IMG/VR virus record: IMGVR_UViG_3300044647_002122
Span: 1-20,939 of that record
Strand: one strand, 5' to 3'
DNA: 20,939 bases
Origin: a virus
Each line of letters begins with the position of its first letter. The stretch's first letter is position 1. Made by a program: the position numbers and the translations under genes. Of this stretch, positions 1 through 15,758 are shown one piece after another. The notes below the pieces were generated by a model. The model did not search any database, had not been told where the DNA came from, and saw only the letters and a program-made list of their open reading frames with translations.

Positions 1-251
1 TGGCGGTCCCTGACGCGCTCCCTAAGGCCGTTCGCGCGTACCTCCCGGCCTCTACCCCTGCCGCGCCCGCGACGACGACCACGGCCGCGCCAGCGGCGCC
101 GGTAGCGCCCTCGCCGCGCACCTCGACGGGCACGATTCCCCAGGCGCCGAGCGAACCGCAGGCATGGAGCGCCGAGGCCATCGCGCGGCTGTCGCCCGCG
201 GACTTCCGCGCGAACCGCGAGGCCATCATGGCGGCGCTCCGCACGGGTTGA
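1..251 (+). CDS. C-terminal part of an unknown head-region protein (partial, 5' end outside window)
   Basis: The reading frame starting at base 3 is open from the window edge to a TGA at 249-251, giving about 82 residues of a truncated protein. The visible part begins AVPDALPKAVRAYLP. It continues with a long Ala/Thr/Pro-rich linker (roughly residues 18-50) and ends in a compact charged helical segment, AWSAEAIARLSPADFRANRE. It lies directly upstream of the capsid gene, which is where phages usually encode a scaffold, a capsid-maturation protease or a portal-associated protein. A disordered linker followed by a short helical C-terminus is compatible with a scaffold-like protein, but no diagnostic motif is present, so the function stays open. 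The stop codon overlaps the -35 element of the putative capsid promoter. Confidence 0.7.
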   Translation, partial: AVPDALPKAVRAYLPASTPAAPATTTTAAPAAPVAPSPRTSTGTIPQAPSEPQAWSAEAIARLSPADFRANREAIMAALRTG

Positions 252-276
252 CAGTTTGTCGCGGAGGACGTAGGGT
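248..276 (+). promoter_or_regulatory. Putative sigma70-like promoter for the capsid/morphogenesis block
   Basis: A perfect -35 hexamer TTGACA (248-253) is followed after exactly 17 bases by TAGGGT (271-276), a G-rich -10 of the kind accepted in high-G+C bacteria. The -35 contains the stop codon of the preceding gene. Transcription would begin near 282-284, about 90 bases upstream of the capsid start. This is the best promoter match seen in front of the rightward morphogenesis block. It is inferred from sequence only. Confidence 0.5.
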
Positions 277-279
277 GGA

Positions 280-303
280 CGTGCGGGGTTAGCGCCCCGC
301 ACG
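280..303 (+). other. Strong hairpin in the leader of the capsid transcript
   Basis: CGTGCGGGG (280-288) and CCCCGCACG (295-303) form a perfect 9-bp stem with a 6-base loop (289-294). No T-tract follows, so it is not a typical intrinsic terminator. It lies exactly where the transcript from the putative promoter at 248-276 would start, so it may be a 5' stabilising stem-loop. A factor-dependent terminator for the upstream gene is the alternative. Confidence 0.45.
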
Positions 304-371
304 CGCACGGGGTCGAGCTCCCGTAAAAAAGCGAAAGGCGCGGGAACCCTCCAATCTGTCAGGAGGCCCCC

Positions 372-1049
372 GTGGCCAACGAAGTTTACTTTTCCGGTCT
401 GTCCGGCAACGCCCGCGTTGCCGCGATCCTCAACCAGTTCGTCGTCACCAAGCTGACGGACACCGCGTCGCTCGTCAATCACCCGAGCATCACCCAGCTC
501 CGTTCTATGAACGGCTCCGGGTCCACCGTCGTGCAGGTGCCGGTCGTGAGCTGGGGCGCGAACGCCATGGCGTCCGTGGCCGAGAACTCCACGGTGTCGA
601 ACACCGCGCTCACCACGACGAACGCCAACGTGACCATCGCTCGTCAGGCGCTCCGTCGCCAGATCAGCGACCTTGCGCAGCTCACCTCGGCGGGCATCGC
701 GCTCGACGTGACGCTCGAGAACATCGCGGCCGACATGGTCCTCGCGTACAACAAGCGCGTGACTGCGATGCTCGGCGATCTGGCGTCTGGCTTCTCGACC
801 TCGGTCGGCTCCACGGGCGTTGACCTCACGGTCGCGAACTTCTACGCCGCGATTTTTCAGCTCCAGCTCAACAGCGCGGACGGCATGTTCACGGCCATCC
901 TGCACCCGCAGCAGATCAACGACCTCATCTCCTCGCTGCGCTCCGAGACCGGCCCCGGCCAGTACCTTGCGACGAGCCAGGATCAGGTCCAGGCGAAGGG
1001 CCCCGGCTTCCGCGGAAACCTGTTCGGCGTAGACGTCGCCTCGGCATGA
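372..1049 (+). CDS. Major capsid protein, HK97-fold type (N-terminal and central part; ORF ends early)
   Basis: This ORF encodes 225 residues and starts at GTG 372 behind a perfect Shine-Dalgarno AGGAGG (361-366). The sequence has the pattern of small HK97-fold phage coat proteins: an N-terminal arm, a segment VAENSTVSNTALTTTNANVT followed by IARQALRRQISDLAQLT, a long helix around IAADMVLAYNKRV, and the later FTAILHPQQINDLISSLRSE and GFRGNLFGVDV stretches. In such proteins the chain normally continues from GVDV through a short loop into a C-terminal part of about 70 residues. Here the frame stops at TGA 1047-1049, and that C-terminal part is found in the -1 frame starting at 1046. The two ORFs together total 293 codons, a normal coat-protein size. 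The ORF is therefore either a broken capsid gene, a split capsid, or affected by a sequence error. Confidence 0.8.
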   Translation: MANEVYFSGLSGNARVAAILNQFVVTKLTDTASLVNHPSITQLRSMNGSGSTVVQVPVVSWGANAMASVAENSTVSNTALTTTNANVTIARQALRRQISDLAQLTSAGIALDVTLENIAADMVLAYNKRVTAMLGDLASGFSTSVGSTGVDLTVANFYAAIFQLQLNSADGMFTAILHPQQINDLISSLRSETGPGQYLATSQDQVQAKGPGFRGNLFGVDVASA

Positions 1050-1252
1050 TGATCGCCCCCGGCGCGATCGGCGTGGCGACCGCGACCGCTGCCCCGATCC
1101 TCGGCGGGGCGACCATCGCGTCGCAGTCGCCCATCCTCGTAGAGATTGAGAGGGACGCCAGTTCGGGGAGTTCCATCGTTGTTGGCTCCGCATTCGTTGG
1201 CGTCGCCGAGCTGGACGACCTCCGCGGCGTCGGCATCCTCTCCGACGCCTGA
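1046..1252 (+). CDS. Major capsid protein, C-terminal part in a different frame
   Basis: This 68-residue ORF starts at ATG 1046 and shares ATGA with the stop of the preceding ORF; a second ATG is at 1049. The product runs MMIAPGAIGVATATAAPIL, then SPILVEIERDASSGS, then a VGVAELDDLRGVGILSDA-like ending. This order (a small residue, then APGAIG, then a VE-ERDAS strand, then V-GVAE--D-RGVGI-TDA) is the usual C-terminus of HK97-type coat proteins and follows naturally from the ORF at 372-1049. No Shine-Dalgarno is visible directly upstream, so separate expression would depend on termination-reinitiation at ATGATGA. Compared with relatives I would expect a further loop of roughly 10-16 residues between GVDV and this segment. 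An out-of-frame deletion is therefore as likely as a natural split. Confidence 0.65.
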   Translation: MMIAPGAIGVATATAAPILGGATIASQSPILVEIERDASSGSSIVVGSAFVGVAELDDLRGVGILSDA

Positions 1253-1269
1253 TCCTCTCAGACACGCAC

Positions 1270-1306
1270 GCGCCCGCGTCGGTGGTTACCCTACCTGCGC
1301 GGGCGC
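1270..1306 (+). terminator. Inverted repeat after the capsid gene (possible terminator or attenuator)
   Basis: GCGCCCGCG (1270-1278) pairs perfectly with CGCGGGCGC (1298-1306) across a 19-base loop that can itself pair weakly. It sits in the gap (1253-1335) between the capsid C-terminus and the next gene. That is a common site for a partial terminator letting capsid mRNA exceed that of downstream genes. No U-tract follows, so intrinsic termination is uncertain. Confidence 0.3.
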
Positions 1307-1335
1307 ATCTGAGTCTGCGACACAAAGGAGCGACG

Positions 1336-2004
1336 ATGGCAGCGACATTTGGAACGAGTGGAACGGGACAGTTCGAGGGCCGCGCAGCGAGTCGCCCGCA
1401 GGCGATGCGCGAGCTCGTGCGGCTCGAGCCCTCTCCGACCTTCTGGTATCTGCACCATCCTGCCAAGTGGACCTATCGCGCTGGCGAGTGGCTCCCGATG
1501 CTTTCGACGCTGCGCGCTGACCCGGGCGTCGCCAACGTCGACCAGGGCGGCGACACCGCCGCCGCCGAGGTGGCCAAGCGCCGCCGGGGCTGGACGATCA
1601 TTCCCTGGGACGCCGAGCCGGGCGGCTACGTCGTCGCCTACGACGGCGTCGCGGGCACGGTCCACATGTCGAAGTGGGAATTGCCCAAGGTCGTTGCCGG
1701 GCAGACGCGCATCGAGAGCGACGAGGAGGGCTATTGGGCCTTCTGCCGCCGCCTCGTGGTGGACGGATACATCGAGCTGCCGGATACGGACTTTATTGAT
1801 CTCCAGATCGAGCGCCAGGAGAAGAAGGTCGGCGAGTGGCGCGAGAAGGCACCGAGCTCGCCGTACCACCGTGACGCTCTCGCCAACGAGGAGGCCCTCC
1901 TCGACGGGATGCGCGCTGCCATGGAGCGCCTCTACGCGCCGCCCGTGACGGACGGCGAGGCGCCCGCCGCGCCCGCACCCAAGCCGCGCCGAGGCCGCGC
2001 GTGA
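1336..2004 (+). CDS. Unknown virion-region protein (222 aa)
   Basis: The start is ATG 1336, chosen because AAAGGAG (1325-1330) is well spaced before it. An upstream GTG at 1282 in the same frame would read through the capsid-gap hairpin and has no ribosome site. The 222-residue product is soluble. It has an aromatic N-terminal region (FWYLHHPAKWTYRAGEWLPML), a middle segment with GWTIIPWD and a charged helical stretch (LQIERQEKKVGEWREKAP), and ends in a Pro/Ala tail with PKPRRGRA. I do not recognise the family. Its position between capsid and connector genes suggests a head-associated or capsid-decorating role, but nothing in the sequence proves this. It overlaps the next small gene by GTGA. 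Confidence 0.75.
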   Translation: MAATFGTSGTGQFEGRAASRPQAMRELVRLEPSPTFWYLHHPAKWTYRAGEWLPMLSTLRADPGVANVDQGGDTAAAEVAKRRRGWTIIPWDAEPGGYVVAYDGVAGTVHMSKWELPKVVAGQTRIESDEEGYWAFCRRLVVDGYIELPDTDFIDLQIERQEKKVGEWREKAPSSPYHRDALANEEALLDGMRAAMERLYAPPVTDGEAPAAPAPKPRRGRA

Positions 2005-2147
2005 GCGAGCGCGCCGGCTACCGCGAGGCCATGGAGCGGATGACCCAGCGTCTCCGTGAGTCGGGCATGGCGAGCGACAAGGCGCGCAAGGTGGCCGAGG
2101 ACACGGCGCGCCGTGCCGATCAGAAGCAAACCGACAAGGGCCGATAG
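2001..2147 (+). CDS. Small charged helical protein (48 aa)
   Basis: A GTG at 2001 overlaps the previous stop (GTGA, 2001-2004) and opens a 48-codon frame ending in TAG 2145-2147. The product, beginning MSERAGYREAMERMTQRL, is almost entirely Arg/Lys/Glu/Ala/Gln, predicted as one or two helices, with a basic C-terminus (RRADQKQTDKGR). There is no hydrophobic segment and no recognised domain. Translational coupling to the upstream gene and the high-G third positions support it as a real gene. Its role is unknown. Small coupled ORFs at this spot often belong to head assembly. Confidence 0.55.
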   Translation: MSERAGYREAMERMTQRLRESGMASDKARKVAEDTARRADQKQTDKGR

Positions 2148-2156
2148 GGGGCATCG

Positions 2157-2915
2157 ATGTCGCTCGCCGAGACTGTCTACACCGCGCGCTTTCGGAGCAC
2201 TGAGACGCTCGAGCGGGGGCGCACGCAGACGATCTCGTGTCCGACCTCGCGCGCGGGCGCGACGGCGACGCCGACGAGCGGCACCGTCACCATCTACCGG
2301 CCCGATCAGAGCGTGCTCGTAACGGGCGCGGTGACGGTCGCGAGCATCGCGACGTTCTCGCTCACGGGAGCGACGACGACGGCCGAGGCGCTCGGCGAGG
2401 GGTTCTTGATCGAGTGGGCGCTCGTGATGCCGGACGGCGTGACGCACACCTTCAGGCAGGACGCCGCCGTCTGTAGGCGAACGCTCTACAACGTCGTATC
2501 GCAAGATGACCTCACCCAGCGGCACTCCGACTTGCCGTCGCTCCTCGGCGCCGCGGCGAGCTACCAGCCGTACATCGACGAGGCGTTCTTTACGATCTGC
2601 AACCGACTGATCGGCGCGGGCCGTCGGCCCTACCTCGTGATCCAGCCGAGCGCGCTCCGCGAGTGCCATCTAATGCTGGCGCTTCACCTCGTGTTTATCG
2701 ACTACAGCACGTCGGCCGGCGACGGCGGGCGGTGGCAGGCCCTCGCCGCGCACTACCTGTCGGCGTACGAACAGGCCTACGGGGCGCTTCGATTCAGCTA
2801 CGACGAGGCCGACGACAACCGCGTCGACCCGACGAAGAAGAAGGCGGCCTCGTCGCAGATTTGGACGAACGGCCGCGGGCTCTCGCACGCGTCGTGGACT
2901 CGCTATGGCGGCTAA
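2157..2915 (+). CDS. Putative head-tail connector/adaptor protein
   Basis: The product is 252 residues, starting at ATG 2157 after a G-rich site (ATAGGGGG). Residues 1-105 are beta-rich and Thr/Ser-rich (TISCPTSRAGATATPTSGTV, then a TVTIYRPD strand). Residues 115-235 are helical, with QDDLTQRHSDLPSLL, a PYIDEAFFTICNRLI helix and LRECHLMLALHLVFIDYSTS. The helical half resembles the small head-completion adaptors that sit below the portal. The first half looks like an added beta-sandwich. The gene overlaps the next one by 11 bases. The assignment rests on position and general architecture, not on a signature motif, so another minor head protein is possible. Confidence 0.55.
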   Translation: MSLAETVYTARFRSTETLERGRTQTISCPTSRAGATATPTSGTVTIYRPDQSVLVTGAVTVASIATFSLTGATTTAEALGEGFLIEWALVMPDGVTHTFRQDAAVCRRTLYNVVSQDDLTQRHSDLPSLLGAAASYQPYIDEAFFTICNRLIGAGRRPYLVIQPSALRECHLMLALHLVFIDYSTSAGDGGRWQALAAHYLSAYEQAYGALRFSYDEADDNRVDPTKKKAASSQIWTNGRGLSHASWTRYGG

Positions 2916-3348
2916 GACGGTTCGCCAGCTTCGCGAGGACGTGACGACGCGGATGCTCACGCTGTCGGGCTGGCGTGAGTCGCGCGTGCTCCCGGAGTCG
3001 TTCGGGCGCGACGCGGACAGCATCGCCCACAAGGCATTCGTCGTGCACCCCATCGCGACGAAGGATCTCCGGCAGTACCGGGGCAAGCCTGCCGAGGGCA
3101 CGCTCGTCGAGACGGACCTCCAGATCCGGTACTCGTGGCGCATGGCGCCTAAGGACATGAGCAACAGCTACGACGACAGCCTCGACGGCGCCCAGGCCGT
3201 GATCAACCTGCTCATGGTCTACGACGCCAACTGGCCGAGCTCCTACAAGGTCCAAGTGCTCGAAACGTCGCAAGCCGGCACCGATACCGGTGAGTGGGTT
3301 ATCGGCGTGGTAAGCTTCCGCATCGTCCACACGCTCCCGCTCCAATAG
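2905..3348 (+). CDS. Putative tail terminator / head-tail joining protein
   Basis: The product is 147 residues, starting at ATG 2905 inside the end of the preceding gene. An N-terminal helix (TVRQLREDVTTRMLTLSGWRES) is followed by alternating beta strands (KAFVVHPIATKDLRQY, ETDLQIRYSWRM), a helix (SLDGAQAVINLLMVYD) and final strands (YKVQVLETSQ, EWVIGVVSFRIVHTLPL). An alpha-beta layout with a terminal strand of the form V-f-RIVHTLPL, placed immediately before the tail tube gene, matches phage tail terminator proteins that cap the tube and join it to the head. The match is structural and positional, not based on exact motifs. Confidence 0.55.
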   Translation: MAAKTVRQLREDVTTRMLTLSGWRESRVLPESFGRDADSIAHKAFVVHPIATKDLRQYRGKPAEGTLVETDLQIRYSWRMAPKDMSNSYDDSLDGAQAVINLLMVYDANWPSSYKVQVLETSQAGTDTGEWVIGVVSFRIVHTLPLQ

Positions 3349-3356
3349 GTGGAATC

Positions 3357-3851
3357 ATGGCTCAAAGCACGACGATCAAGAATTTTCGCGACGGCACGCT
3401 GACCTTCACGGACAATACCGGCACGCCGCTCAGCATGTCGATCGTGTACGAGGCGGGCGACTTCTCGATCGACAACCTGAACGAAGGGCTCGTTGAGACG
3501 ACGGCCTACCTCGATCGCGGCGAGTTCGCGACGTTGCGCAAGACCAACCGCGTGTTCCCGTCGTTCTCGTTCACGGCGCACATGACGGACCTGTCGGACG
3601 CGACCGACAAGTTGCTCTACGACCTCGCGCGCAAGACCGGCGCGTGGGCGTCGGCCGTGTCGACGCTCGGCGCCAACGCCGACGCCATGACGTACAAGCT
3701 CACCTGGGTTTGTGAGGGGACCAACTTCGGCGACACCGCCGACCACACCCTCGTGATGGATTCCTGCCGCATCACGATCTCGATCTCCGAGGGCGACCCC
3801 AACTCCTTCTCCGTGTCCGGCATCGTCTACGGCACCATCACGGCGACCTGA
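3357..3851 (+). CDS. Major tail (tube) protein
   Basis: The product is 164 residues. ATG 3357 is preferred because AGGTGG (3347-3352) is spaced correctly, while the upstream in-frame start at 3294 lies within the previous gene. The product opens with an N-terminal segment typical of siphophage tube subunits: NFRDGTLTFTDNTGTPLSMS, then VYEAGDFSIDNL. It continues through beta strands with Thr-rich edges (SFSFTAHMTDLSD, TYKLTWVCEG), and ends in DSCRITISISEGDPNSFSVS then GIVYGTITAT. This fold polymerises into the hollow tail tube around the tape measure. Its neighbours, a terminator-like gene before it and frameshifted chaperones after it, fit exactly. The next gene starts in the last base of its stop (TGATG). 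Confidence 0.8.
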   Translation: MAQSTTIKNFRDGTLTFTDNTGTPLSMSIVYEAGDFSIDNLNEGLVETTAYLDRGEFATLRKTNRVFPSFSFTAHMTDLSDATDKLLYDLARKTGAWASAVSTLGANADAMTYKLTWVCEGTNFGDTADHTLVMDSCRITISISEGDPNSFSVSGIVYGTITAT

Positions 3852-4216
3852 TGCAGTCCCGTACCGTCCAGCTCGGCCCGCACACGGTCACGCTCCGCGC
3901 GCCGCCCTCGTTCGCGCTGGGGCGCGTGGTGTCCATGGCGCTGTCCCAGTCGCCGCTCCTGGGTCTCGGCGCGGCGCTCGGCGTGTGCTGGGGCGGCAAG
4001 CCGCTCAAGGCCTCGCTCAAGGCCTGCCAGCACGACGCGTGCGCCTACGGGGCGGCCGTCGTCGACGAGCTCCACGCGCTCGGCATTCCCGAGGGCGAGA
4101 TCTGGACGGCGGCCTCGGCGGCGGTCGAGCTGCTCACGGCCTCGACGCCGACGGAGGCGGGCGTAGCTGCCGCTGCGGATTTTACCGCGCCCCCGGCGGC
4201 GGGCTCGACGCCGTAG
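3851..4216 (+). CDS. Tail assembly chaperone, short form (gpG-like)
   Basis: The 121-residue product starts at ATG 3851 in a TGATG overlap with the tail tube stop and ends at TAG 4214-4216. It is mostly helical (SFALGRVVSMALSQSPLLGL, EIWTAASAAVELLTA), with a flexible Ala/Pro/Thr end (AADFTAPPAAGSTP). Position between tail tube and tape measure, size, and an overlapping -1 ORF downstream are the hallmarks of lambda gpG-type chaperones that keep the tape measure soluble during tail assembly. Primary sequence is poorly conserved in this class, so the call rests on context. A fraction of ribosomes is expected to slip near 4180-4195 and make a longer product ending at 4401. Confidence 0.7.
   Translation: MQSRTVQLGPHTVTLRAPPSFALGRVVSMALSQSPLLGLGAALGVCWGGKPLKASLKACQHDACAYGAAVVDELHALGIPEGEIWTAASAAVELLTASTPTEAGVAAAADFTAPPAAGSTP
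4178..4195 (+). promoter_or_regulatory. Candidate -1 ribosomal frameshift region for the gpG/gpGT chaperone pair
   Basis: The zero-frame codons GAT TTT ACC (4178-4186) contain TTTT (4180-4183), where a Phe tRNA can re-pair perfectly one base back. A second run of five C residues (4190-4194, codons CCC CCG) allows a Pro tRNA to do the same. Slippage by -1 in this region leads into the downstream frame as PGGGLDAVAMEIG and continues to 4401, just before the zero-frame stop at 4214. Neither site is a canonical X XXY YYZ heptamer, so the exact slip position is uncertain. Confidence 0.45.
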
Positions 4217-4218
4217 CC

Positions 4219-4401
4219 ATGGAGATCGGGCTCGCCTACTGTGGGGAGCCCGACGCGTTCTACGCGTGGCCTGTCGAGACACAAGAGCGCGTGCTCGGAT
4301 GGTGGCGCGCGAAGCACACGCCGCCCGCGCCGGCGCCGAAGCGAGGCAAGTCCGCAGCCGAGGGCGACGCGGCGGCGCTTGCGTTCTGGGGGCTCGGGTG
4401 A
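4219..4401 (+). CDS. Tail assembly chaperone extension (T part of gpGT), probably made by -1 frameshift
   Basis: The frame is open well upstream of the first good ATG (4219) and overlaps the chaperone ORF, always in the -1 phase. If started at 4219 it gives 60 residues: EIGLAYCGEPDAFYAWPVET, then QERVLGWWRAKH, then a Pro/Ala/Lys linker and a final AAALAFWGLG. The GLAYCG-PDAFYAWP and WWR signature resembles the tail-chaperone T domains and similar small phage proteins found at this locus. No convincing Shine-Dalgarno precedes 4219, which favours expression as a fusion with the upstream ORF rather than alone. The fused protein (3851-4401) would be about 183 residues. The T part normally contacts the tail tube and tape measure. 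It overlaps the next gene by GTGA. Confidence 0.6.
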   Translation: MEIGLAYCGEPDAFYAWPVETQERVLGWWRAKHTPPAPAPKRGKSAAEGDAAALAFWGLG

Positions 4402-5087
4402 GGCCTCCCGGAACGCGCCGGTTCGTTTCAGAGACGACGACCGTAACGCTGGACCGCGCCCTCGATGACGCGCTCCTCGCGTTGGCGCGCGACGTTGCGG
4501 GCGGCGTGATCGACGTGCTCGAGGGGATGGCGTCGCAGACCGTCGATCAGACGCGCGCCAAGTGGTACACCATCGTTCGCAAGCGTTCCGGGCGCTCGGG
4601 CGCCGGCACGAAGTACCGGATGGAGATTCGCGGCGACTCGATCCGCGCGATCGTCTACAACGACGCAAAGGCGCTTGCGAAGCGCGACGTCAACGTGGAC
4701 GCGCAAGGCCGCCTTCTCCCAGGCAGGCAGCAGAAAGCCGGGCAAGTCGTCGCTACGCAAGAGTCCTACGCGTACTTTGTCCACGCGCCGGGCGCGCTCT
4801 CGACGATCGCGAAGTCGGTCCCCTTGGAGGAGTACCGAAAGCTGATGAGCCTGTGGCGCAAAGAGCGCCGCCTCCCGCCGGGCTACATCGCGGGCGCGTA
4901 CAAGGACCGCAAAGGCCGCTCGCGGCCTGTCGGCATCGCGCGCATCGTGCGCAACCCGCTCGCGTCCGACGGCAAGAAGGTGTGGGACACCCTCGCCGTC
5001 AAGGGGTCCAAGGCCGTGATAAAGTCGGAACTCGTTGAGCTCGACCGCGCCCTACAGGCGGCCGGGAAAAACCTCGGGAGGCGCTGA
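4398..5087 (+). CDS. Minor tail / tail-completion-like protein (229 aa)
   Basis: GTG 4398 is taken as the start because it overlaps the previous stop (GTGA), as most genes in this block do. The frame extends further upstream only as shadow. The 229-residue product has an N-terminal amphipathic helix (ALDDALLALARDVAGGVIDVL), a basic central segment (KWYTIVRKRSGRSGAGTKYR), strands SIRAIVYNDA and ATQESYAYFVHAPGAL, and a C-terminal helix (KSELVELDRALQAAGKNLGR). A helix followed by basic strands and a YAYFVHAPG-like segment recalls HK97 gp10-type tail proteins. Those usually lie before the tail tube rather than between chaperones and tape measure, so the assignment is tentative. It overlaps the tape measure start by one base (TGATG). 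Confidence 0.5.
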   Translation: MRPPGTRRFVSETTTVTLDRALDDALLALARDVAGGVIDVLEGMASQTVDQTRAKWYTIVRKRSGRSGAGTKYRMEIRGDSIRAIVYNDAKALAKRDVNVDAQGRLLPGRQQKAGQVVATQESYAYFVHAPGALSTIAKSVPLEEYRKLMSLWRKERRLPPGYIAGAYKDRKGRSRPVGIARIVRNPLASDGKKVWDTLAVKGSKAVIKSELVELDRALQAAGKNLGRR

Positions 5088-6952
5088 TGGCGACGGCAGA
5101 ACTCACCATCACCGCTAACATTGAGGGCCTCCGGCGCCAGCTCGAATCGATCAAGGACATCACCGCCGACCAAGCGACGGCGATGGCCAACCAGCTCAAC
5201 AAGTCGATCAAGGCCGCCGAAAACGCGTCGCGCGCCGCCGCGAAGGCCTCAAAGGTCGCCGCCGACGAGGCGAAGGCGGCCGGGCGCGCGGCGGCCGATG
5301 CGCTGAATGTCGCCTCCGAGTCGGCCACGCGCTTCGGCGACAAGGCCGGGGCGGTAGGCTCGAACGCCGGCAAGCTGGCCGGTATCCTCGACATGCTCGT
5401 ACCCGGCCTGGGTGGCGTGGCGCGCGGCGTGGCCGATGTCGCAGACACCGCCGAGGTGGCCTCCGTCGCCACGAAGGGCCTCGGCCTGTCGATGAGCTCG
5501 ACGCTCGCCGTGCTCGGCCCCGTCGCCATCGCCGTCGCCGCGTTGGGGGCAACCTATGCGTATCTCTCGTCGGAGCTCGACGCGGCCGAGCAGAAGCAGG
5601 CGGCGGCGGCGGACGCGGCGACCAAGCAAGCGGAGGCCGCCGAGAGGTGGGCGGCGACGACGCAAGAGGCCACCGATGCTGTCGCGATTGCGAGCGATGC
5701 TGCCAACGGCGAGGCCATCGCCATCCGCAAAGCGAACAAAGCCGTAGACGAGGGCGCCGCGGCGGTTCGGGCGTTGGCGGTGGTCAGGCGCGACGAGGCG
5801 GCGGCGGCGTCCAGGGCCTTTGGCACCTCGGAGTCGGACGCGGCTAAGGCTGCGTACGCTGAAGCCCAGCGCGAACAGGGGAAGCTCGACGCGCTGGACG
5901 CGCGCATCGACCGCACGAAAACCGAGCGAGAGCTTGTGATCACCGGCGAGTACGCCAAGGGCCGCGCGGCGAAAGAGACGGCCGACGCGCAGATTCGAGC
6001 AGCCAACGCGGCGGCGAAGCGCGCGGCCGACGAAGCCGCCCTCGCCGAGGTCGAGCGCGTCATCCTTGAGCAGACGCAGACGTACCGTTCGGCGCTCACG
6101 TCCCTTCAGGAGACGACGCGCGCCGCCAACGACGCGCAACTCACGGGCGCGGACGCGGTCGAGGCGGCGTTGGCGCGGCAGATCGAGAAGGTCAACGAAC
6201 TTGCGGCGGCCCAAGTCGAGCGCGGCGTGGGCGGCACAGAGCAGATCCTCGCAGTCGAGGCCGCGCGGATCGAGGCCGTGACCGCCCTCGAAGCCAAGGG
6301 CGCCGCCGACATCGACGCCATCTACGAGGCGGCGGCCCAGCGGCGCAACGAGGAGCGCGAAGCCGAGCTCGTCGCCGAGAAGGCGTACCAGCAGATGCGT
6401 GCGGAGGCAACGGCCTCGGCAACGTCAAGCCTGCTCGGCGCCACGTCGGAGGCCTTCGCCCAAGCGGCCGAAGAGCAGGCCAAGACCAATCAGGACGCCG
6501 CCGCCGCGAGCTTCGCGGCCTCGAAAGCCGCGGCTGTAGCGCAGGCGGTGGTAAACACGGCCCTCGCGATTAGCAGCGCCAACACCCTACCGCCCCCGGC
6601 GAACTTCATCGCCATGGCGGCGGCGGGCATCTCCGGGGCGACGACGCTCGCCTCGATCGCCGCGGCGCCGCCGCCCTCGTTCAACGACACGCCGGGCGTG
6701 CAGGTGATGGGGCAGCGCGGGAACGTGTCCCTGGCAAGCGGCGATTATTTCGCGGCGGCGCGGTCGCCGACGGAGCTACAGCGCCAGGTGGGCGCGTCGG
6801 CGTCGGGCGGGCCTACGGTGCTCCAAGTGCGCCTCGGGCACAAAGTCCTCGATCAGTCCGTGGCCCGCACCATCCAAGAGGGCGGGCGCCTGTCGCGTGA
6901 GATCTCGGGCCGAGTCAAGTCGGGCACCACGGGACACCGGAGTCGCGCGTGA
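5087..6952 (+). CDS. Tape measure protein
   Basis: The product is 621 residues, starting at ATG 5087 (TGATG overlap). It is very rich in Ala, Glu, Lys and Arg, with long predicted coiled coil from about residue 10 to 90 and again from about 160 to 470. A clear membrane-like hydrophobic segment lies near residues 139-160 (STLAVLGPVAIAVAALGATY) and a second Ala/Gly-rich hydrophobic region near 480-530, followed by a polar C-terminal part. This architecture, the position after the chaperones and the length define a siphophage tape measure. The protein sets tail length and may help DNA cross the membrane. At about 1.5 angstrom per residue it predicts a short tail of around 90 nm. No lysozyme or peptidase domain is visible. 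The stop overlaps the next GTG (GTGA). Confidence 0.85.
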   Translation: MATAELTITANIEGLRRQLESIKDITADQATAMANQLNKSIKAAENASRAAAKASKVAADEAKAAGRAAADALNVASESATRFGDKAGAVGSNAGKLAGILDMLVPGLGGVARGVADVADTAEVASVATKGLGLSMSSTLAVLGPVAIAVAALGATYAYLSSELDAAEQKQAAAADAATKQAEAAERWAATTQEATDAVAIASDAANGEAIAIRKANKAVDEGAAAVRALAVVRRDEAAAASRAFGTSESDAAKAAYAEAQREQGKLDALDARIDRTKTERELVITGEYAKGRAAKETADAQIRAANAAAKRAADEAALAEVERVILEQTQTYRSALTSLQETTRAANDAQLTGADAVEAALARQIEKVNELAAAQVERGVGGTEQILAVEAARIEAVTALEAKGAADIDAIYEAAAQRRNEEREAELVAEKAYQQMRAEATASATSSLLGATSEAFAQAAEEQAKTNQDAAAASFAASKAAAVAQAVVNTALAISSANTLPPPANFIAMAAAGISGATTLASIAAAPPPSFNDTPGVQVMGQRGNVSLASGDYFAAARSPTELQRQVGASASGGPTVLQVRLGHKVLDQSVARTIQEGGRLSREISGRVKSGTTGHRSRA

Positions 6953-8721
6953 TCCTCTACCCGTCGCAGCTCACCGGGCGCCGCGTCTACTGGCTGCTTA
7001 CCGTCGACGTGGGCGGCGTCCTGATGCGCATGGCCGACGACGAGGTCGACGTCGTTACGGCGTCGGGCCAGGTGCTCCACTACTCGGCGGGCCTCGACGG
7101 CATCGAGACAACCGAGGGCATCGACCTGTTCGGCGACAGCGTGGGGCAGCTCTCCGTGCCGCTCGAGTTCATCGCGCCGCCGGGTGTGAGCATCGCCGCC
7201 CTCGTCGCGCGCGGCGGTGACCTGTCGGCCGGGCGTGGCGAGCTCGCGCGGTGGGTGTCGGGCACTACCTACGAGGCGCGGCGCGTAGTGCTCGTCGGCG
7301 GCCTCACCGACCCCGAGTACGGCGACGACGGCGAGGCCGTGGCCACGTCGCTCGAGGAGCGCCTCGCGTACGACGAGACGCTCACGAGCGCGGCGTCACT
7401 GGCCACCACGGCGACGAACTGGGCACACACGGCGGATCTCCTCGACGACTGGATCGATGTGCCCTACCCCATCGTCATCGGCCGCCCCGGCTACCAGGGC
7501 GGGAGCTCCTACGTGACCGGCTCGCCGGCTGTGTGGGCAGATCATCGAGACGTCGCCGTTGGGGGCGCGTTCCCTGGTCGGGCCGTCGGCAACATCTGCG
7601 TACTTGCCGGGCATCACGTGTCGGCGAACTACGTCTACCTGAACCACGACCAGTATACGGCCGCCGACAAGCGTTTCCGAGTGTTCAACGGCTTCGACTT
7701 GGGCGGCAACCCCATCGCGTTCGCGGCGTGGTATCTGACGACGACGAGCCCCGACGCGTTCGAGTATTCATCCTCGTACGTCTACACGGTCTTTATCGAC
7801 CCCGACCCCGCGACGACGACGGGCGGCCCTACCGTCTCGTTCGGCTCGCTCTACGTCGACCTCGAGGCGACGTTCACGTCAGACGAACAGCTCCCGCTCT
7901 ACGTCGTCTGGAAGGACGAAGCCACGGTAAACGGCGGCGGCGGCGGGCTTGTGCGCGGTGGTGTACTTATCCGCAGCGCCGGCGATGTACTTGAGTACTT
8001 GTTGTCGCTCACGTCGATCCCGGTGGACGCCGGGCGCTTCGCCGCCGCCGCGCCGCTCCTCGATGCGTTCCAGCTCGACGCGACGATCACGGAGCGCGTG
8101 AACGTGTGGGAGCTCATCCAGGATGAGATCCTGCCGCTGCTACCCGTGTCGCTCGTGAGCGGCCCCGAGGGGCTCTACCCGGTCGTGTGGCGCTACTCTG
8201 CCGGCCCCGGTGACGCCGTGCTCGTACTCAACGCCGACACCGATCCCGACGTGTCGCGCGCCGGGCGCGTCGCCTACGACAGCAGCGACAGGAAGAACCG
8301 CTTCACCCTTGAATACCAGCTCTCCTACCGCACGGGCAGCTATCAAGCGTCGCTGACCTACGGCGCCGCCGCCGACGCCGCAGACGACGCCTCCGTCACC
8401 GTGCATCCCGCGTGCACCTACGCGCGGGCGCGAACCGGCCTCGTGGTCGAGCAGTCGATGTCAAGCGCGTGGGTGTACGACAGCGCGACGGCCCGCGCCG
8501 TGCTCGAATGGCAGGCCGCCGCCTACGCGCTGCCGACGCGCACCGTTGCCTACCTCGTTCCCGAGGTGGCCTTCGTCCACGTTGAGCGCGGCATGATCGT
8601 GGCGCTCACGGACTCCAGCATCTACCTCGCGGGCGCCCTCTGCATGGTGCGCGACGTTCTGACGGATGGGACGGGTTACCTGACGCTCACGCTCCAGCTC
8701 CTCGAGGCACCGAATGGCTAA
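6949..8721 (+). CDS. Tail tip / baseplate hub-type protein (590 aa)
   Basis: It starts at GTG 6949 (GTGA overlap with the tape measure stop) and encodes 590 residues. The N-terminal 120 residues are beta-rich and resemble a tail-tip entry domain (LTGRRVYWLLTVDVGG, VPLEFIAPPGVSIAALVAR). A segment WVSGTTYEARRVVLVGGLTD and EERLAYDETLT follow, then a long central region with Thr/Tyr/Asp-rich strands, a GGGGG stretch near residue 327, and a C-terminal part with WELIQDEILPLLPVSLVSGP and YLTLTLQLLEAPNG. The gene directly after the tape measure commonly encodes the distal tail or hub component that closes the tube and anchors fibres. No catalytic motif was recognised. It overlaps the next gene by 8 bases. 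Confidence 0.65.
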   Translation: MILYPSQLTGRRVYWLLTVDVGGVLMRMADDEVDVVTASGQVLHYSAGLDGIETTEGIDLFGDSVGQLSVPLEFIAPPGVSIAALVARGGDLSAGRGELARWVSGTTYEARRVVLVGGLTDPEYGDDGEAVATSLEERLAYDETLTSAASLATTATNWAHTADLLDDWIDVPYPIVIGRPGYQGGSSYVTGSPAVWADHRDVAVGGAFPGRAVGNICVLAGHHVSANYVYLNHDQYTAADKRFRVFNGFDLGGNPIAFAAWYLTTTSPDAFEYSSSYVYTVFIDPDPATTTGGPTVSFGSLYVDLEATFTSDEQLPLYVVWKDEATVNGGGGGLVRGGVLIRSAGDVLEYLLSLTSIPVDAGRFAAAAPLLDAFQLDATITERVNVWELIQDEILPLLPVSLVSGPEGLYPVVWRYSAGPGDAVLVLNADTDPDVSRAGRVAYDSSDRKNRFTLEYQLSYRTGSYQASLTYGAAADAADDASVTVHPACTYARARTGLVVEQSMSSAWVYDSATARAVLEWQAAAYALPTRTVAYLVPEVAFVHVERGMIVALTDSSIYLAGALCMVRDVLTDGTGYLTLTLQLLEAPNG

Positions 8722-11700
8722 GACGCAGCCGACTCACGACTTGCGCGGCCTGCTGGTCCCCGAGGCCGGCACGCTGACGGCGACGTACACGGCGACCTCC
8801 CAAGCGGGGCCGCGAGCTGGCGCGATCGTGCCCGATCAAGTCACCGGCCTCTCGCTCTACGGGTCGGGCGCCCTCGACGCCAACTCCCAGGCCGCGCTCG
8901 GCGGCGACATGATCCTCAACATCGCGGCGGCCGGGAGCGTCGGCACCGCTCAGTGCCGGTGGCGGTTCGACGGCGAGGTGGCGCGCAACTACGACCCGCC
9001 CGTGATGATGGCGGGCTGGGAGTACATCGACCGCACCACGACGGCGACGCGCTACCGCTATCCGCACATCGTGCGCCGCGCCGAGACCGGCCTCCTCGCC
9101 GTCGTGTCGACGTACAACACCAACGACCTCCGCGTGCACGCCCAGGGCACCACGGGCAAGTGGACGATGGCGACGCTCGCGACGAGCAACTTCGCCTCGA
9201 AGGCCTGCCTCGTCGATATGCCGTCGGGCCGCCTCCTCGCGCTCTACGTGGTGCCGTCCTCGCCGGCGGGCTCGTCGACACAGATCCGGATGGCCTACTC
9301 TGACGACGACGGCGCGACGTGGACCACGGGCTCTGACGCCGTGCTTCCGTCCGCGATCGGCGTGGCGCCGTCGGACATCCAGCGCATCCGCGCCGTGGAG
9401 CTCGGCGGCCAGATCGCCATGCTCATCCACTACGTCTCGGCCGGCGTCGACGTGATCTACCAGTACGCGAGCCGCGACGGCGGCGGCACGTTCGCCACCA
9501 TCGAGGCCGTCGGCCTCGTCGCGCGGGGGTTCCCTGACCTCGCCGTGAGTCAGGGCTCGATCTACGTGGCGCTCCTGCGCTACGACGCCTCGTTCACGCC
9601 CGTGACGATCCGGCCCTACGTCTACCGCCTCGCGTCGGCGTCGCAGCCTGTGACGAGCTCGCAGGGCGTCAACGCCGCAACCGCCGCGGGCAACGCGGTG
9701 TTCGGCTCGTACGCAGGCACGGCGTTCACGGCCGGCGAGCTGGCCATCCTCGCGACGGATGACGGGACGCTCTACCTGTACGGCGTAGACTTCGCGGGCG
9801 GCGGGACTGGCGAGGTCATCACGCGCGTCTCCGTTGATCGCGGCGCCAACTGGGACCAGAACTTCCGCAACTCGCGCGCGGCGGTGGGCGGCACGGTGGC
9901 GCACTACTCGGGCTCGGCCTCGACGGCCTGGCGCGACCTGTCCGTCGCTCCGGAGCGCGGGCGCGCCGTCCTGGCGCACACCTACATCGGAACCGTCGTC
10001 AACGACTACACGAGCCTCTGCGCGGCCTACCTCGGCGGGTGGTCGACGGTGGGGATGCCCGCGCCGGGCGATCAAGACGCGTGGGAGGTGGCGGGCTGGG
10101 ACGACAGCTACGTCCCGATGGACCTCCCCGACGACGCCGGGCCTACGTGGACGCGCACGCTCACGGGCTCGGCAACCGAGGCGCTCGGCGATGCTGGCGT
10201 CACGTTGACGGCGACGGGCGCCGACCGCGTGTTCTTTACGACGGCGCCCACGACGACCGGCTACCTCGAGGACGGCATTCTCTGCGAGGCCCGCGTCGTC
10301 GCCACGTCCGGCACGTCGGCGATAGACCTCCGCGTGTGCGACGGTACGAACGGCTACCGTGCCAGGGTAGAGATCACGACGACGGGCGTAACGCTCTCCG
10401 ACGTGGGCGGCGGCGCCTTCACGGCGACGACGGCGGTAGATGCCACGTTGGGCATCGTGGTGCGCATCGCGCTCGGGAAGGCGACCGGCGCATGGTCTAC
10501 CAACGTCGGCCGGGTGCGCGCATGGGTGCGCGTCGATGGCCCCTACACCGGTGGCGCCGTCAACCACGGCCCGCGACAGGACCGCGAGTGGACGCAGATC
10601 GGCACGTCCTCGACGCTCCAGAGCATCGCCACGGCCGCCAACCGCATCGCCTGGGGCGCGCTCACGGCCGCCGCGACGTCGACGTGGGGGTGGGTGTACT
10701 TCTCGGCCGGACGGGAGACGGCCGGGAACATCCTGACGAGCGCCACGGGCACCACGCGCGGCCACGTCGTGCCGAGCTCGGCGAGCCCCGTGCACATCAC
10801 GGACGGTCTCCGCGTCCACGGCGTCGACGGTCCCACCGTCCAGGGCGACTCGTTCCGCACGCGCGCCGACTACGAGTACCCCGTGTCGGCGATCAATCCG
10901 GCCGTGAGTCCGTCACCGCGGCGCCGGTGGCGCTCAACCTCCGACGCTCAACAGGACATCATCCTCACCGGCGTGTCGCTCGGCGCCCGCTCGGGCGACC
11001 TCTACGGCTTGTACCTCGCGGGCTGCAACTGGCGCACGGCGACGCTCTACCGCGACTCGAGCGCGACCAACAAAGTCTGCGACATCGACCTCGGCGCCGG
11101 CATGTCCGCGCTCGACTTCACGCGCACGCGTGGGCTCGTGTTCCCGATCGCCGGTGCGAGCGGGGGGATGCCGTTCTACGCGGGGGCACAGCGCCTCGCC
11201 GGCGCAACTGTCGAGTACACGCAGGCAGTCGGGCCTACCGTCGTCGCTCGCGAGGTGGCCGGGAACACGTCGGGCGCTTGGATCGGCGGCTCGGCGACGG
11301 GCACCTATGCGGCCGTGCGCATCGACCTCGACGCGTTCGAGGCGGGCGACCCGACGACGGGGCAGATGGGCCTCCGGATGCCGAGCGCCGTGATCCTGTT
11401 CGACGCGCTCGTCGGGACCGATACGCTGATGCTCCGGATTCCGGGCCAGGTCACGCCCGGCGACTACTTCTCGATCGGGACGATGATCGTGGGGCGCGTG
11501 CGGCTGTTCGGCAGGCAGTACTCGCGCGGGCGCGGCCTCACGTTCACGCCGGCCTACGAGCTCACCGAGACGCGCAGCGGCACACGCCGCGCTCGGCGGC
11601 TCGGCCCGACACGCCGCGCCATGGAGATGGCGTGGGACGATGGCATCGACACGACGGGCCTAAACACGGCCGGCACGGCGCCGGACTACTACGGCCTCGG

Positions 11701-11998
11701 GTACTCGGGCGCCGACGGCCTCACGGCCATCGCGGACACCGGGCGCACGCTCGCCGGCCTGATCGAGCAGACGGACGGCGCCGTGCTGCCGGTCGTCGTG
11801 CTCCCGGCCATCCCGCAGCAGGCGTCCGCGCCGGGTACGACCGGTGTGCAGCTCCTCAACCCGGAGGCGCACCTCTACGGGCGCATCCTGACGGAGACGC
11901 TCCGCGTCGACAGTGACGCGAGCGTGCGCGGGCAGGAGCTCCGCGACCCCGGCGAGGTGGTGCAGGTGTCCACAGTGATCGTGGAAGAGGAGCTCTGA
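8714..11998 (+). CDS. Large tail fibre / receptor-binding protein with sialidase-type Asp-box propeller
   Basis: The product is 1094 residues, starting at ATG 8714. Three Asp-box motifs (S-x-D-x-G-x-x-W/F) are visible: SDDDGATW at residue 196, SRDGGGTF at 253 and SVDRGANW at 373. They point to a six-bladed sialidase-like beta-propeller across roughly residues 100-420. Next comes a Thr/Gly-rich beta domain near 480-620 that looks like a lectin-type jelly roll. The final third, about 700-1094, is beta-rich (FDALVGTDTLMLRIPG, YFSIGTMIVGRVRLFG) and looks structural. No standard sialidase Arg triad can be assigned by eye, so glycan binding is better supported than hydrolysis. The size and place after the tail tip gene fit a central fibre or spike that recognises host surface sugar. 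Confidence 0.65.
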   Translation: MAKTQPTHDLRGLLVPEAGTLTATYTATSQAGPRAGAIVPDQVTGLSLYGSGALDANSQAALGGDMILNIAAAGSVGTAQCRWRFDGEVARNYDPPVMMAGWEYIDRTTTATRYRYPHIVRRAETGLLAVVSTYNTNDLRVHAQGTTGKWTMATLATSNFASKACLVDMPSGRLLALYVVPSSPAGSSTQIRMAYSDDDGATWTTGSDAVLPSAIGVAPSDIQRIRAVELGGQIAMLIHYVSAGVDVIYQYASRDGGGTFATIEAVGLVARGFPDLAVSQGSIYVALLRYDASFTPVTIRPYVYRLASASQPVTSSQGVNAATAAGNAVFGSYAGTAFTAGELAILATDDGTLYLYGVDFAGGGTGEVITRVSVDRGANWDQNFRNSRAAVGGTVAHYSGSASTAWRDLSVAPERGRAVLAHTYIGTVVNDYTSLCAAYLGGWSTVGMPAPGDQDAWEVAGWDDSYVPMDLPDDAGPTWTRTLTGSATEALGDAGVTLTATGADRVFFTTAPTTTGYLEDGILCEARVVATSGTSAIDLRVCDGTNGYRARVEITTTGVTLSDVGGGAFTATTAVDATLGIVVRIALGKATGAWSTNVGRVRAWVRVDGPYTGGAVNHGPRQDREWTQIGTSSTLQSIATAANRIAWGALTAAATSTWGWVYFSAGRETAGNILTSATGTTRGHVVPSSASPVHITDGLRVHGVDGPTVQGDSFRTRADYEYPVSAINPAVSPSPRRRWRSTSDAQQDIILTGVSLGARSGDLYGLYLAGCNWRTATLYRDSSATNKVCDIDLGAGMSALDFTRTRGLVFPIAGASGGMPFYAGAQRLAGATVEYTQAVGPTVVAREVAGNTSGAWIGGSATGTYAAVRIDLDAFEAGDPTTGQMGLRMPSAVILFDALVGTDTLMLRIPGQVTPGDYFSIGTMIVGRVRLFGRQYSRGRGLTFTPAYELTETRSGTRRARRLGPTRRAMEMAWDDGIDTTGLNTAGTAPDYYGLGYSGADGLTAIADTGRTLAGLIEQTDGAVLPVVVLPAIPQQASAPGTTGVQLLNPEAHLYGRILTETLRVDSDASVRGQELRDPGEVVQVSTVIVEEEL

Positions 11999-12435
11999 TG
12001 CCGGCGACGACTGTTTGCCCGGTGGCCTGGATTGAGATCGGCTCGCAGGCCGACGCGACGGTGCGGGCGCTCAAGATCGTGGCGGGCTCGGGCGTCACGC
12101 TGACCACGTCGACCTCGGCGGGCGTGGCGACGACGACGATCGCGGCCTCGGGCGGCGGCGGGAGCCCTACTGGTGCGGCGGGCGGCGACTTGGGCGGGAC
12201 GTACCCGAATCCCACGGTGACCCAGGCCCGCGGCCTCCGCGAGACGGGCGGCCCTACGACGCTCACGGTGGGGGCCGTCGCCGACGGGCAATACCTGCGG
12301 CGCTCGGGCTCGTCGATCGTCGGCGCCTATCTCGCGCTCGTCGTCGGCGTTACCGGCGGCGATCTCACATTCACCGACGGCAGCGCGGGCGTAGAGCTCC
12401 CGGCCGCCGCCGTTACCGCGGGGACTGTCGCATGA
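11998..12435 (+). CDS. Small tail-fibre-like protein with GDLxGTYPNPTV motif
   Basis: The product is 145 residues, starting at ATG 11998 (TGATG overlap). It contains a Gly/Ser/Thr-rich hinge (ASGGGGSPTGAAGG), then GGDLGGTYPNPTVTQARGLR. The GDL-GTYPNPTV element recurs as a linker in many phage tail fibres and marks fibre shafts. The remainder is short beta strands (LTVGAVADGQYLRRSGSSIV, GGDLTFTDGSAGVELP) like those of trimeric fibre shafts. It is probably a fibre accessory or tip subunit working with the 1094-residue protein upstream. It overlaps the next gene by ATGA. Confidence 0.6.
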   Translation: MPATTVCPVAWIEIGSQADATVRALKIVAGSGVTLTTSTSAGVATTTIAASGGGGSPTGAAGGDLGGTYPNPTVTQARGLRETGGPTTLTVGAVADGQYLRRSGSSIVGAYLALVVGVTGGDLTFTDGSAGVELPAAAVTAGTVA

Positions 12436-13424
12436 GTCTGGAGCACATCAACTGGCGATACGTCGGCTCGCAGTCGTTCGCTTCGGCGACCGTGGCGGCG
12501 GTCCTCGACGCAACCTACACGCTCGGCATCAAGACGACCTATGCCAACGGGGCGACGCGCACCGAGGGCACCGGGAGCGCGTGGACGTTCACCGGCAACC
12601 GCTACCAGAACACCGGGACGACAGAGGCGCTCTATCCGGCGCCGCCTACCTCGACGCTGAACGGGCGCATCCTCCTCGCGGGCGCGGCCACTCTGCCGTC
12701 GCCCAACCCCACGATGGCCTCTCCTGACGCCGCCGCCGCCAACATCCTGCTCGCGAACGTCGTCAAGAACGCGGGGGCTTTCGCGACGTGGAACGCCGCC
12801 TCCCCGATGACCTCGGGCCAAACGTTCGGTTACTGGCGCGTGTGGCCCACCTCGGCCGGCACTGGCAGCGTCTACCTCTACGAGGGGAAAGACGCGCTGC
12901 TCGTCGTGGTGTCGGCGGGCGCTGCTGCCTACGCGTGGATCGGCGGCGCCATCGGCGACCCGGAGACGGACTCCACGTCGGACGGAGAGAGCGACGGCAA
13001 GGTCTACGGACAGGCTGTGTCAGGTACAAACGCCGTGTGGTTGGCCAACTGGTTCGGCGCCACGAGTGCCACAACTTCGGGTTTCCCGCTCGTCCACGCC
13101 ACCGGGGCAAGTCAAACCCACATCGGGGTATTTACTCCGGGCGGAAGCACGATTCTAACCGCGACGTCGCTTACGGGCGGTCTCGTCGCCATGACGACCA
13201 CCGGACTGAAGACCCGCTCGGGCCGGTGGGCTCGGGCGCCGCTCCTCTACAGGTACACCGCCGCCGCGCCCAACGACGGCTTCGCGTTCCGCCTACGCGA
13301 GGTGTTCGCGTTCAGCGACGAGACCATGGGCCGCACCCAGACGAACGGCGCGACGACGATCGGCTACGTCGCCGGCCCCTCCGCGACGACCAATCAGGAC
13401 GCGCTCCTTCTGGAGCACGGATGA
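12432..13424 (+). CDS. Putative tail structural protein (330 aa)
   Basis: The product is 330 residues, starting at ATG 12432 (ATGA overlap). It is beta-rich and Ser/Thr/Gly/Ala-rich with few charged residues. Landmarks are a helix-poor N-terminus (INWRYVGSQSFASATVAAVL), TFGYWRVWPTSAGTGSVYLY, SGTNAVWLANWFGATSATT, and a C-terminal portion GRWARAPLLYRYTAAAPNDG then AFRLREVFAFSDETMGR. The composition and location after fibre genes suggest a virion surface or fibre-tip protein with a jelly-roll-type fold. No catalytic or binding signature was recognised. Base composition in the part around 13.0-13.15 kb is somewhat less G+C rich than the neighbours, as often seen in receptor-binding genes. Confidence 0.6.
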   Translation: MSLEHINWRYVGSQSFASATVAAVLDATYTLGIKTTYANGATRTEGTGSAWTFTGNRYQNTGTTEALYPAPPTSTLNGRILLAGAATLPSPNPTMASPDAAAANILLANVVKNAGAFATWNAASPMTSGQTFGYWRVWPTSAGTGSVYLYEGKDALLVVVSAGAAAYAWIGGAIGDPETDSTSDGESDGKVYGQAVSGTNAVWLANWFGATSATTSGFPLVHATGASQTHIGVFTPGGSTILTATSLTGGLVAMTTTGLKTRSGRWARAPLLYRYTAAAPNDGFAFRLREVFAFSDETMGRTQTNGATTIGYVAGPSATTNQDALLLEHG

Positions 13425-13633
13425 GCCCGGCCGTCGAGTGGCTCCGCGGCCACCTCGCCGAGGGGAGGTCCATCGCGCTCGTCTCCGTCGCCGTTGAGCA
13501 TCACGAGGCGCTCCATGCCTCCGGGCTCATCGCGGGCGCCGTCCTTGAACCGCCTCCCCCGGCGCGCGACGGGTGCATCGTCGTCATCGACGAGGCCGGT
13601 GACGAGTGGGCGGCGCACCTGTCCGCGTCGTAG
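13421..13633 (+). CDS. Small unknown protein (70 aa)
   Basis: ATG 13421 overlaps the preceding stop (ATGA) and gives 70 residues beginning SPAVEWLRGHLAEGRSIALV and ending EAGDEWAAHLSAS. It has a predicted beta-alpha-beta arrangement (SIALVSVAVEHHEAL, GCIVVIDEAGDEW) with a PPPP loop between. It has no signal peptide or membrane segment. The frame also runs open far upstream, but that part is a shadow of the 330-residue gene. Function is unknown. It may be a small virion or chaperone component, since it ends the tail gene run just before the lysis genes. Confidence 0.55.
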   Translation: MSPAVEWLRGHLAEGRSIALVSVAVEHHEALHASGLIAGAVLEPPPPARDGCIVVIDEAGDEWAAHLSAS

Positions 13634-13697
13634 TCCGCCGCTCGGCGACGCGCGAGACAAACTGTGATACGACGTGTCCATCCGCAACAGGACGATC

Positions 13698-14003
13698 ATG
13701 CCTGACTCTCCCTCGTGGTACGGCAAAGCATTCAAGCTCGAAGGACCGGCCGGCATCCTCGCGATTCTGTTCACCAGCGGCCTGATCGGGGCGAGCGCGG
13801 CGGGGGGCGTCGGCGAGATCACGCGGGAGGCCGACATGGCGGCGGTGGACGCTCGCGTGGACGCGCGCATGGGCGACGTGGTCGAGCAGATCCGGCGGGA
13901 GCAGCAGGCCGCGAGCGACGCAGCCCAGGCCCTCGCGGGGGCGCGGTACGATGAGATTCTCCGTCGCCTTGACCGCATCGAGCGGCGACTGGATACCCAG
14001 TGA
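13698..14003 (+). CDS. Small membrane/coiled-coil protein, candidate holin or lysis accessory
   Basis: ATG 13698 (101 residues) is preferred over GTG 13674 because a weak ribosome site (CAGGAC) precedes it and the added eight residues look non-coding. Residues 17-38 form one hydrophobic segment (GPAGILAILFTSGLIGASAA). Residues about 45-101 are a highly charged heptad-rich coiled coil (VDARVDARMGDVVEQIRREQ, then YDEILRRLDRIERRLDTQ). The gene immediately precedes an endolysin, sharing TGATG. One membrane segment plus a cytoplasmic or periplasmic coil fits a holin, antiholin or spanin-like lysis partner. With a single transmembrane segment and no lipobox the exact class cannot be fixed. Confidence 0.55.
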   Translation: MPDSPSWYGKAFKLEGPAGILAILFTSGLIGASAAGGVGEITREADMAAVDARVDARMGDVVEQIRREQQAASDAAQALAGARYDEILRRLDRIERRLDTQ

Positions 14004-14431
14004 TGCCCTCGCGCAACATCCTCGACCTGCACCCGGACCTCCAGCCGCTCGCGCTCGCGTTCCTGGCGCGGTGCGCCGCCCGCCAGGTGGACGTGCTCAT
14101 CGTGTGCACGTACCGGAGCGGCGCCGAACAGGACGCGCTCTACGCCATCGGGCGCACGAAGCCGGGGGCGAAGGTGACGAACGCCCGCGCCGGGCAGTCG
14201 GCGCACAACCACACGATCGACGGGAAGCCCGCCGCGCGCGCGTTTGACGCCGTTCCGCTTCTCCACGGCAAGCCTATCTGGGAAGATCCGCGCGACGCGG
14301 ACACCGACTGGACGAACGACTTCGGCTGGCGCGTGATGGGGGAGGTGGCCGCCGAGCTCGGGCTCGTGTGGTACGGCAAGCCGGGCTCGGCGTTCCGCGA
14401 GGCACCCCATTTCCAGCTGGCGGGCGCGTGA
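14003..14431 (+). CDS. Endolysin, M15 (VanY/L-Ala-D-Glu type) peptidase
   Basis: The start is ATG 14003; GTG 14000 in the same frame would add one residue. Both overlap the stop of the previous gene. The product is 142 residues. It has the M15 fold signatures YRSGAEQDALYAIGR, a SAHN box, AFDAVP and EAPHFQL. Numbering from the GTG, the zinc ligands would be H69, D83 and H137, with E134 as catalytic base. This family cuts the peptide stem of peptidoglycan and is the usual phage lysin partner of a holin. It is a single catalytic domain with no cell-wall binding domain or signal peptide, typical of lysins that need a holin to cross the inner membrane and act on thin peptidoglycan. The stop overlaps the next GTG. 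Confidence 0.85.
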   Translation: MPSRNILDLHPDLQPLALAFLARCAARQVDVLIVCTYRSGAEQDALYAIGRTKPGAKVTNARAGQSAHNHTIDGKPAARAFDAVPLLHGKPIWEDPRDADTDWTNDFGWRVMGEVAAELGLVWYGKPGSAFREAPHFQLAGA

Positions 14432-14613
14432 CCCTCGACGCTCTCGACGCGTTCATGGCCATCTTCGGCCTCACTCGCGTCCCCAACGACCCCGAGCTCG
14501 AGCCGACGAACGCCGACCGCGCCCAGCTCGCCGCCCTCGGCGCGACGCCGCCCGAGGCGCTCACCGTGACCGTGCGCCGGCCCGAGCCAGCGGCGGGGCA
14601 CTTCACCGACTGA
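14428..14613 (+). CDS. Small unknown protein (61 aa) after the endolysin
   Basis: GTG 14428 overlaps the endolysin stop (GTGA) and gives 61 residues beginning TLDALDAFMAIFGLTRVPND and ending PEPAAGHFTD. It is acidic and mostly helical at the N-terminus, with no membrane segment or motif. In the same frame an upstream ATG at 14368 would lie within the endolysin and is rejected. Location suggests a lysis or late accessory role, but nothing in the sequence shows it. Confidence 0.45.
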   Translation: MTLDALDAFMAIFGLTRVPNDPELEPTNADRAQLAALGATPPEALTVTVRRPEPAAGHFTD

Positions 14614-14623
14614 CGGAGCCCAG

Positions 14624-14809
14624 ATGCCCCTCACGCCGAACGAACACCCCACCGTCGCCCTCAACCTCGGCCGCGTGGTCATGCTCATCGTGCGCGCCCT
14701 CGGCAAGCAGAGCGACGGCGGCGCCAAGATCACGCCGGCCGAGTGGGCGGCGATCGGAGTGGAGGCCGGCCTCGTCGCGGCGAAGGTGGCGCGCGACGTG
14801 CGCGATTAG
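14624..14809 (+). CDS. Small unknown helical protein (61 aa), last gene of the rightward block
   Basis: ATG 14624 follows a CGGAG ribosome site by a short spacer. The 61 residues include a hydrophobic helix (VALNLGRVVMLIVRALGK), a linker (QSDGGAK) and a second helix (TPAEWAAIGVEAGLVAAKVA). It is too short and too polar around the helix to be a confident membrane protein. It ends at TAG 14809, one base before the convergent stop of the leftward block at 14811, so the two transcription units meet here. The function is unknown. Confidence 0.5.
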   Translation: MPLTPNEHPTVALNLGRVVMLIVRALGKQSDGGAKITPAEWAAIGVEAGLVAAKVARDVRD

Positions 14810-14810
14810 G

Positions 14811-15131
14811 CTACGGTAGACATCGATCTTCAGCCCGTAGTCGCGTCTCCTCCTCGCGGCGGTGCTCGCCGCGCTCAATGGCATCTGCGGCGCGCAGTAG
14901 CAGGCCGCGTCCGGACGGGGACAGGGCGCGTTCTCCGGCCTCGATGGGGTGGGGCTCGTTCGCCTCGGCGTTCAGCCACGCCACCACGGCGGCGCGCTCG
15001 GCGGCTACCTCGGCGCGCAGGCGCTCCACCTCCTCGACGAGCGCGAGAGCCTCGGCAGGAGGCAGCAGCACGGGCGCACCGTGCCCCGCCGTGAGGCGGG
15101 CGCGTGCCAATAGGGCGTGAAGGTCGGTCAT
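14811..15131 (-). CDS. Coiled-coil protein A of a paralogous pair (106 aa)
   Basis: This leftward gene starts at ATG 15131, overlapping the stop of the upstream paralogue (ATGA), with GAGGAGG just before it as ribosome site. The 106 residues form a helix-rich protein: ALALVEEVERLRAEVAAERA, AVVAWLNAEAN, a loop with GERALSPSGRG, then AADAIERGEHRREEE. The AERAAVVA-L and A-AIERGEHRREE elements are shared with the gene upstream (15128-15388), so these are tandem paralogues. Such short AIERGEHRREE proteins recur in phage-like DNA, and their role is unknown. It is the last gene of the leftward operon. Confidence 0.6.
   Translation of the reverse strand: MTDLHALLARARLTAGHGAPVLLPPAEALALVEEVERLRAEVAAERAAVVAWLNAEANEPHPIEAGERALSPSGRGLLLRAADAIERGEHRREEETRLRAEDRCLP
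14849..14873 (-). repeat. 25-bp direct repeat, copy 1 (copy 2 at 15136-15160)
   Basis: Bases 14849-14873 and 15136-15160 are identical. Each encodes the GEHRREE-type C-terminus of one of the two paralogues. In copy 2 the GAGGAG within the repeat also serves as the ribosome site of the next gene. In copy 1 no gene follows, so that ribosome site is left unused. Confidence 0.8.
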
Positions 15132-15702: not shown

Positions 15703-15758
15703 GGGAACTCCGAAGGGAACGCCGGGGCCGTGACGTGGCCCCGGCGGTGGGGTGGTTA
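15703..15758 (-). repeat. Intergenic hairpin + ribosome-site cassette, copy 1
   Basis: This 56-bp block fills the whole gap between the stop of the Ala-rich gene and the start of the 105-residue gene. Read on the minus strand it holds the TAA stop, a C-rich spacer, a perfect 9-bp stem (arms 15721-15729 and 15737-15745, 7-base loop), and TTCGGAGTTCCC, which is the ribosome site for ATG 15702. A near-identical copy lies at 16546-16601. No U-tract follows the stem, so it may be an attenuator, a processing or stability element, or a factor-dependent terminator. Confidence 0.75.

Follow-up and report, generated by a model that had tools for sequence, protein, structure and literature searches.

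The window, i.e., the whole stretch of DNA analysed here, is a linear virus record of 20,939 bases (IMGVR_UViG_3300044647_002122) that contains no Ns and lacks a terminal repeat. Outside the capsid locus, its gene content is compatible with a tailed phage and includes a tape-measure protein, an endolysin with a VanY domain, an ERF annealing protein, a RuvC-like resolvase and a DNA methyltransferase. At the capsid locus, two ORFs lie in different frames and overlap at ATGATGA GCATGATGA (Table 1). The first-pass annotation took these ORFs for the two parts, of 225 and 68 aa, of one coat protein, and the alignment agrees: the product of the first ORF is 99% identical to the N-terminal part (first 225 residues) of uninterrupted 308-aa relatives, and the ATG ATG at the start of the second ORF corresponds to two internal Met codons that belong to the invariant G-M-M motif (GMMIAPG, GMMFAP) of the intact protein. 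The GTG start of the first ORF is preceded by an AGGAGG motif, whereas no Shine-Dalgarno-like sequence is present upstream of the second ORF. As already pointed out in the initial annotation, there is no slippery heptamer at the overlap; the lesion described below, located approximately 10 nt upstream of the stop, explains the two frames without one.

Table 1. Features of the window considered in this analysis (positions are those of the whole window)
Feature	Position	Strand	Comment
AGGAGG motif	361–366		ahead of the GTG start of the 5' ORF
5' part of the major capsid protein gene	372–1049	+	GTG start, 225 codons, ends in ...FGVDVASA followed by a frameshift-generated TGA
Deletion breakpoint	1035–1036		46 nt of every close relative missing; 1 nt breakpoint ambiguity
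3' part of the same capsid gene, other frame	1046–1252	+	ATG start, 68 aa, MMIAPGAIG...
Stretch common to L005 and L009, strain-switch zone	1621–1747	+	127 nt exact, equal to the end of the L005 contig
ORF containing the tandem repeat	15756–16544	-
Tandem repeat	15835–16113		12-nt/72-nt repeat, ~23 copies of the 12-mer
ERF ssDNA-annealing protein gene	16778–17605	-
RuvC-like resolvase gene	18411–18941	+

The assignment to the HK97-type coat proteins, also made at first pass, holds, albeit weakly at the sequence level. For the intact relative, the hit to PHROG 544 (“major head protein”; E 6.5e-4) is weak but specific; no match was obtained in Pfam or, for the capsid protein, among the sequences of solved structures. 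Confidence in the predicted structure of the intact protein of relative L005 is low (mean pLDDT 49); among the top Foldseek matches listed for this model, nearly all are HK97-fold capsids or encapsulins, with E down to 4e-7 and TM mostly between 0.3 and 0.5, and further matches are to viral capsid proteins. Another relative, L009, extends further upstream than the window and has a terminase large subunit (PHROG) preceding the capsid gene; the ORFs of 564 and 216 codons before the major capsid protein (MCP) have the size and place of a portal and a scaffold and no PHROG match of their own. We propose that the 564-codon ORF is probably the portal and the 216-codon coiled-coil ORF probably the scaffold.

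Searching IMG/VR for the first ORF yielded 60 loci (L002–L061), a family of uncultured-phage MCPs with a probable HK97 fold, nearest to PHROG 544. This family resembles the window in sequence, as noted above for the N-terminal part, and shares the gene order of the window's phage (terminase large subunit, 564-codon ORF, 216-codon coiled-coil ORF, MCP); the difference is that the window copy lacks 46 nt and its frame is broken. A single uninterrupted frame runs through the site in all 56 IMG/VR relatives that span it, 50 of which contain a complete ORF of 303–310 codons; in the other six (L013, L015, L029, L057, L058 and L060), the ORF is clipped by contig ends and the frame is open at the site. 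The joining segment missing from the window is likewise present in 56/56. The stop-start overlap occurs in none of the 56, i.e., a termination-reinitiation gene pair is not conserved, nor does any relative have a two-frame architecture, all being single-frame, and the pattern of a programmed -1 frameshift was not found. By tblastn, no relatives were detected in named phages, and none were confirmed in bacterial genomes that could provide evidence of a host or a prophage. One relative (L015) has a separate private gap in the same capsid gene, near window position 604, of 21 nt (7 codons, in frame), which is not present in the close relatives L002–L014.

Over the gene, the window and L002–L005 match at 929 of the 929 aligned bases, and the sole difference is a 46-nt gap in the window, which follows position 1035 or 1036 given the 1 nt of microhomology. 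The 46 nt comprise 15 codons, which specify residues 223–237 in the intact 308-aa protein, and 1 further nt, and thus give an exact size to the 10–16 residues or so that the first reading of the sequence had considered missing after GVDV. The lost segment joins GVDV to GMMIAPG; in the L005 model, it lies in a low-confidence loop (219–232) and reaches to where the strand 237–243 begins. Three residues of the lost segment, A232, G235 and D237, do not vary within the family, whose members diverge to 56% identity. The gap shifts the frame, so that translation meets a TGA at 1047. The longest exact relative, L005, shows no mismatches to window positions 1–1747 besides the gap, which implies that no further change has followed the deletion. 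Judging from the alignment, this lack of change around the gap is what would be expected of a very recent event or an artefact and not of an established split gene. Two routes to the deletion were considered and rejected. The intact site shows nothing unusual in its folding (z -0.93), in disagreement with a hairpin-driven deletion, and slippage between two CCTCGGC copies would yield a product with different junction bases, the real breakpoint having 1 nt of microhomology.

The apparent split stems solely from the absence, in this record, of 46 bases that are kept by otherwise identical relatives. On the strength of these sequence comparisons, the locus is almost certainly an ordinary single coat protein gene that is broken, in the window contig, by a private out-of-frame deletion of 46 bp. 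Under this scenario, the MCP of the phage population would be encoded by one normal gene of roughly 308 codons; the loss of 46 bp after 1035/1036 in the window contig would remove 15 residues and shift the frame, which would then run into TGA TGA, that is, the two conserved Met codons read out of frame, such that the second ORF would be the leftover 3' end of the capsid gene. The product of the broken gene, we infer, would be non-functional.

The first-pass annotation had left the choice between an out-of-frame deletion, an error of consensus or assembly, and a capsid made of two polypeptides. The first two stand as a class, given that the 46-bp gap is private to the contig, and the third does not. 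Production of two polypeptides by termination-reinitiation at ATGATGA, or of a joined product by a programmed frameshift, is very improbable: the geometry of the overlap is the one point in its favor, whereas in the intact gene ATGATG is read as a pair of conserved Met codons inside the frame, no ribosome-binding site serves the second ORF, and a frameshifted, joined product would still lack the 15 residues, including the invariant ones. The comparison with homologues of identical sequence that had been suggested as a possible refutation shows one uninterrupted ORF between identical flanks (L002–L005, 0 mismatches over 929 nt), on which the two-polypeptide capsid fails. It is most unlikely that a real phage lineage couples the translation of two polypeptides at ATGATGA to make a shortened coat protein that can still assemble; such a functional split, if true, would be unusual for a coat protein, and the evidence is against it. 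Programmed frameshifts are known in phage capsid genes, namely those of T7 (gp10A/10B) and Listeria phage PSA, where a slippery site directs the addition of a C-terminal extension to an already complete coat protein. The window resembles these systems in having two frames around the coat gene but differs in that the break falls within the protein core and costs it residues.

Searches of IMG/VR with two exact patterns found the window junction in no other contig, with the proviso that the collection may omit records closest to the window, so that the privacy of the junction holds for other contigs and samples only. The intact version of this spot was recovered from 14 contigs, which belong to 13 datasets. 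The window is a mosaic: apart from the gap, it equals L005 over 1–1747, and it equals L009 at 100% over 1621–15009, with L009 differing from the window at more than 100 places up to 1620. Both L005 and L009 come from dataset 3300042515. Given these successive matches, the source community probably consists of several interweaving strains, with the contig being one path through them. The stretch shared by the two relatives is as long as a usual largest k-mer of de Bruijn short-read assemblers (127 nt); no literature support for this assembler setting was found. The join between L005 and L009 may also be a true recombinant, and the presence of ERF and RuvC-like resolvase genes in the phage would fit mosaic exchange between strains. 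The neighbouring relatives L003, L004, L006 and L007 also alternate, block by block, between stretches that are identical and stretches that diverge.

These observations bear on the origin of the deletion that, in the preferred interpretation, breaks the single coat gene. It probably, if by no means certainly, is an artefact of sequencing, amplification or assembly in a metagenome of mixed strains, whether by mis-assembly or from a template or read that was chimeric or itself deleted, as suggested by the composition of the contig from two haplotypes joined through an exact 127-nt stretch, by the coexistence of intact L005 and L009 contigs in one dataset, and by the different private gap of L015 in the same gene. 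However, the strain switch is located some 600 nt from the gap, so that the haplotype join was rejected as the direct cause of the deletion, and the mosaic itself, as mentioned above, is possibly a real recombinant. A genuine recent 46-bp deletion, i.e., a rare loss-of-function allele in a defective genome or decaying prophage that either depends on a helper to spread or was sampled while at low frequency, is possible but not probable. The contig is free of Ns and otherwise identical to the intact relatives, and a microhomology of 1 nt is not a normal assembler overlap, which suggests that the junction was probably present in one or more templates or reads. Nevertheless, the allele occurs in no other contig searched, the absence of surrounding substitutions gives no indication of decay, a relative with an intact gene matches the rest of the window at 100% up to 15009, and none of the genome-collection hits to the capsid family points to a prophage. 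More generally, the locus is a case for caution: an apparent split of an essential gene in a metagenomic phage contig is explained here by strain-level relatives of identical sequence.

The window also contains, outside the capsid region, a 12-nt/72-nt tandem repeat located inside an ORF on the minus strand. The product of this ORF contains repeated Ala/Asp/Trp-rich units, and other frames through the repeat are likewise open.
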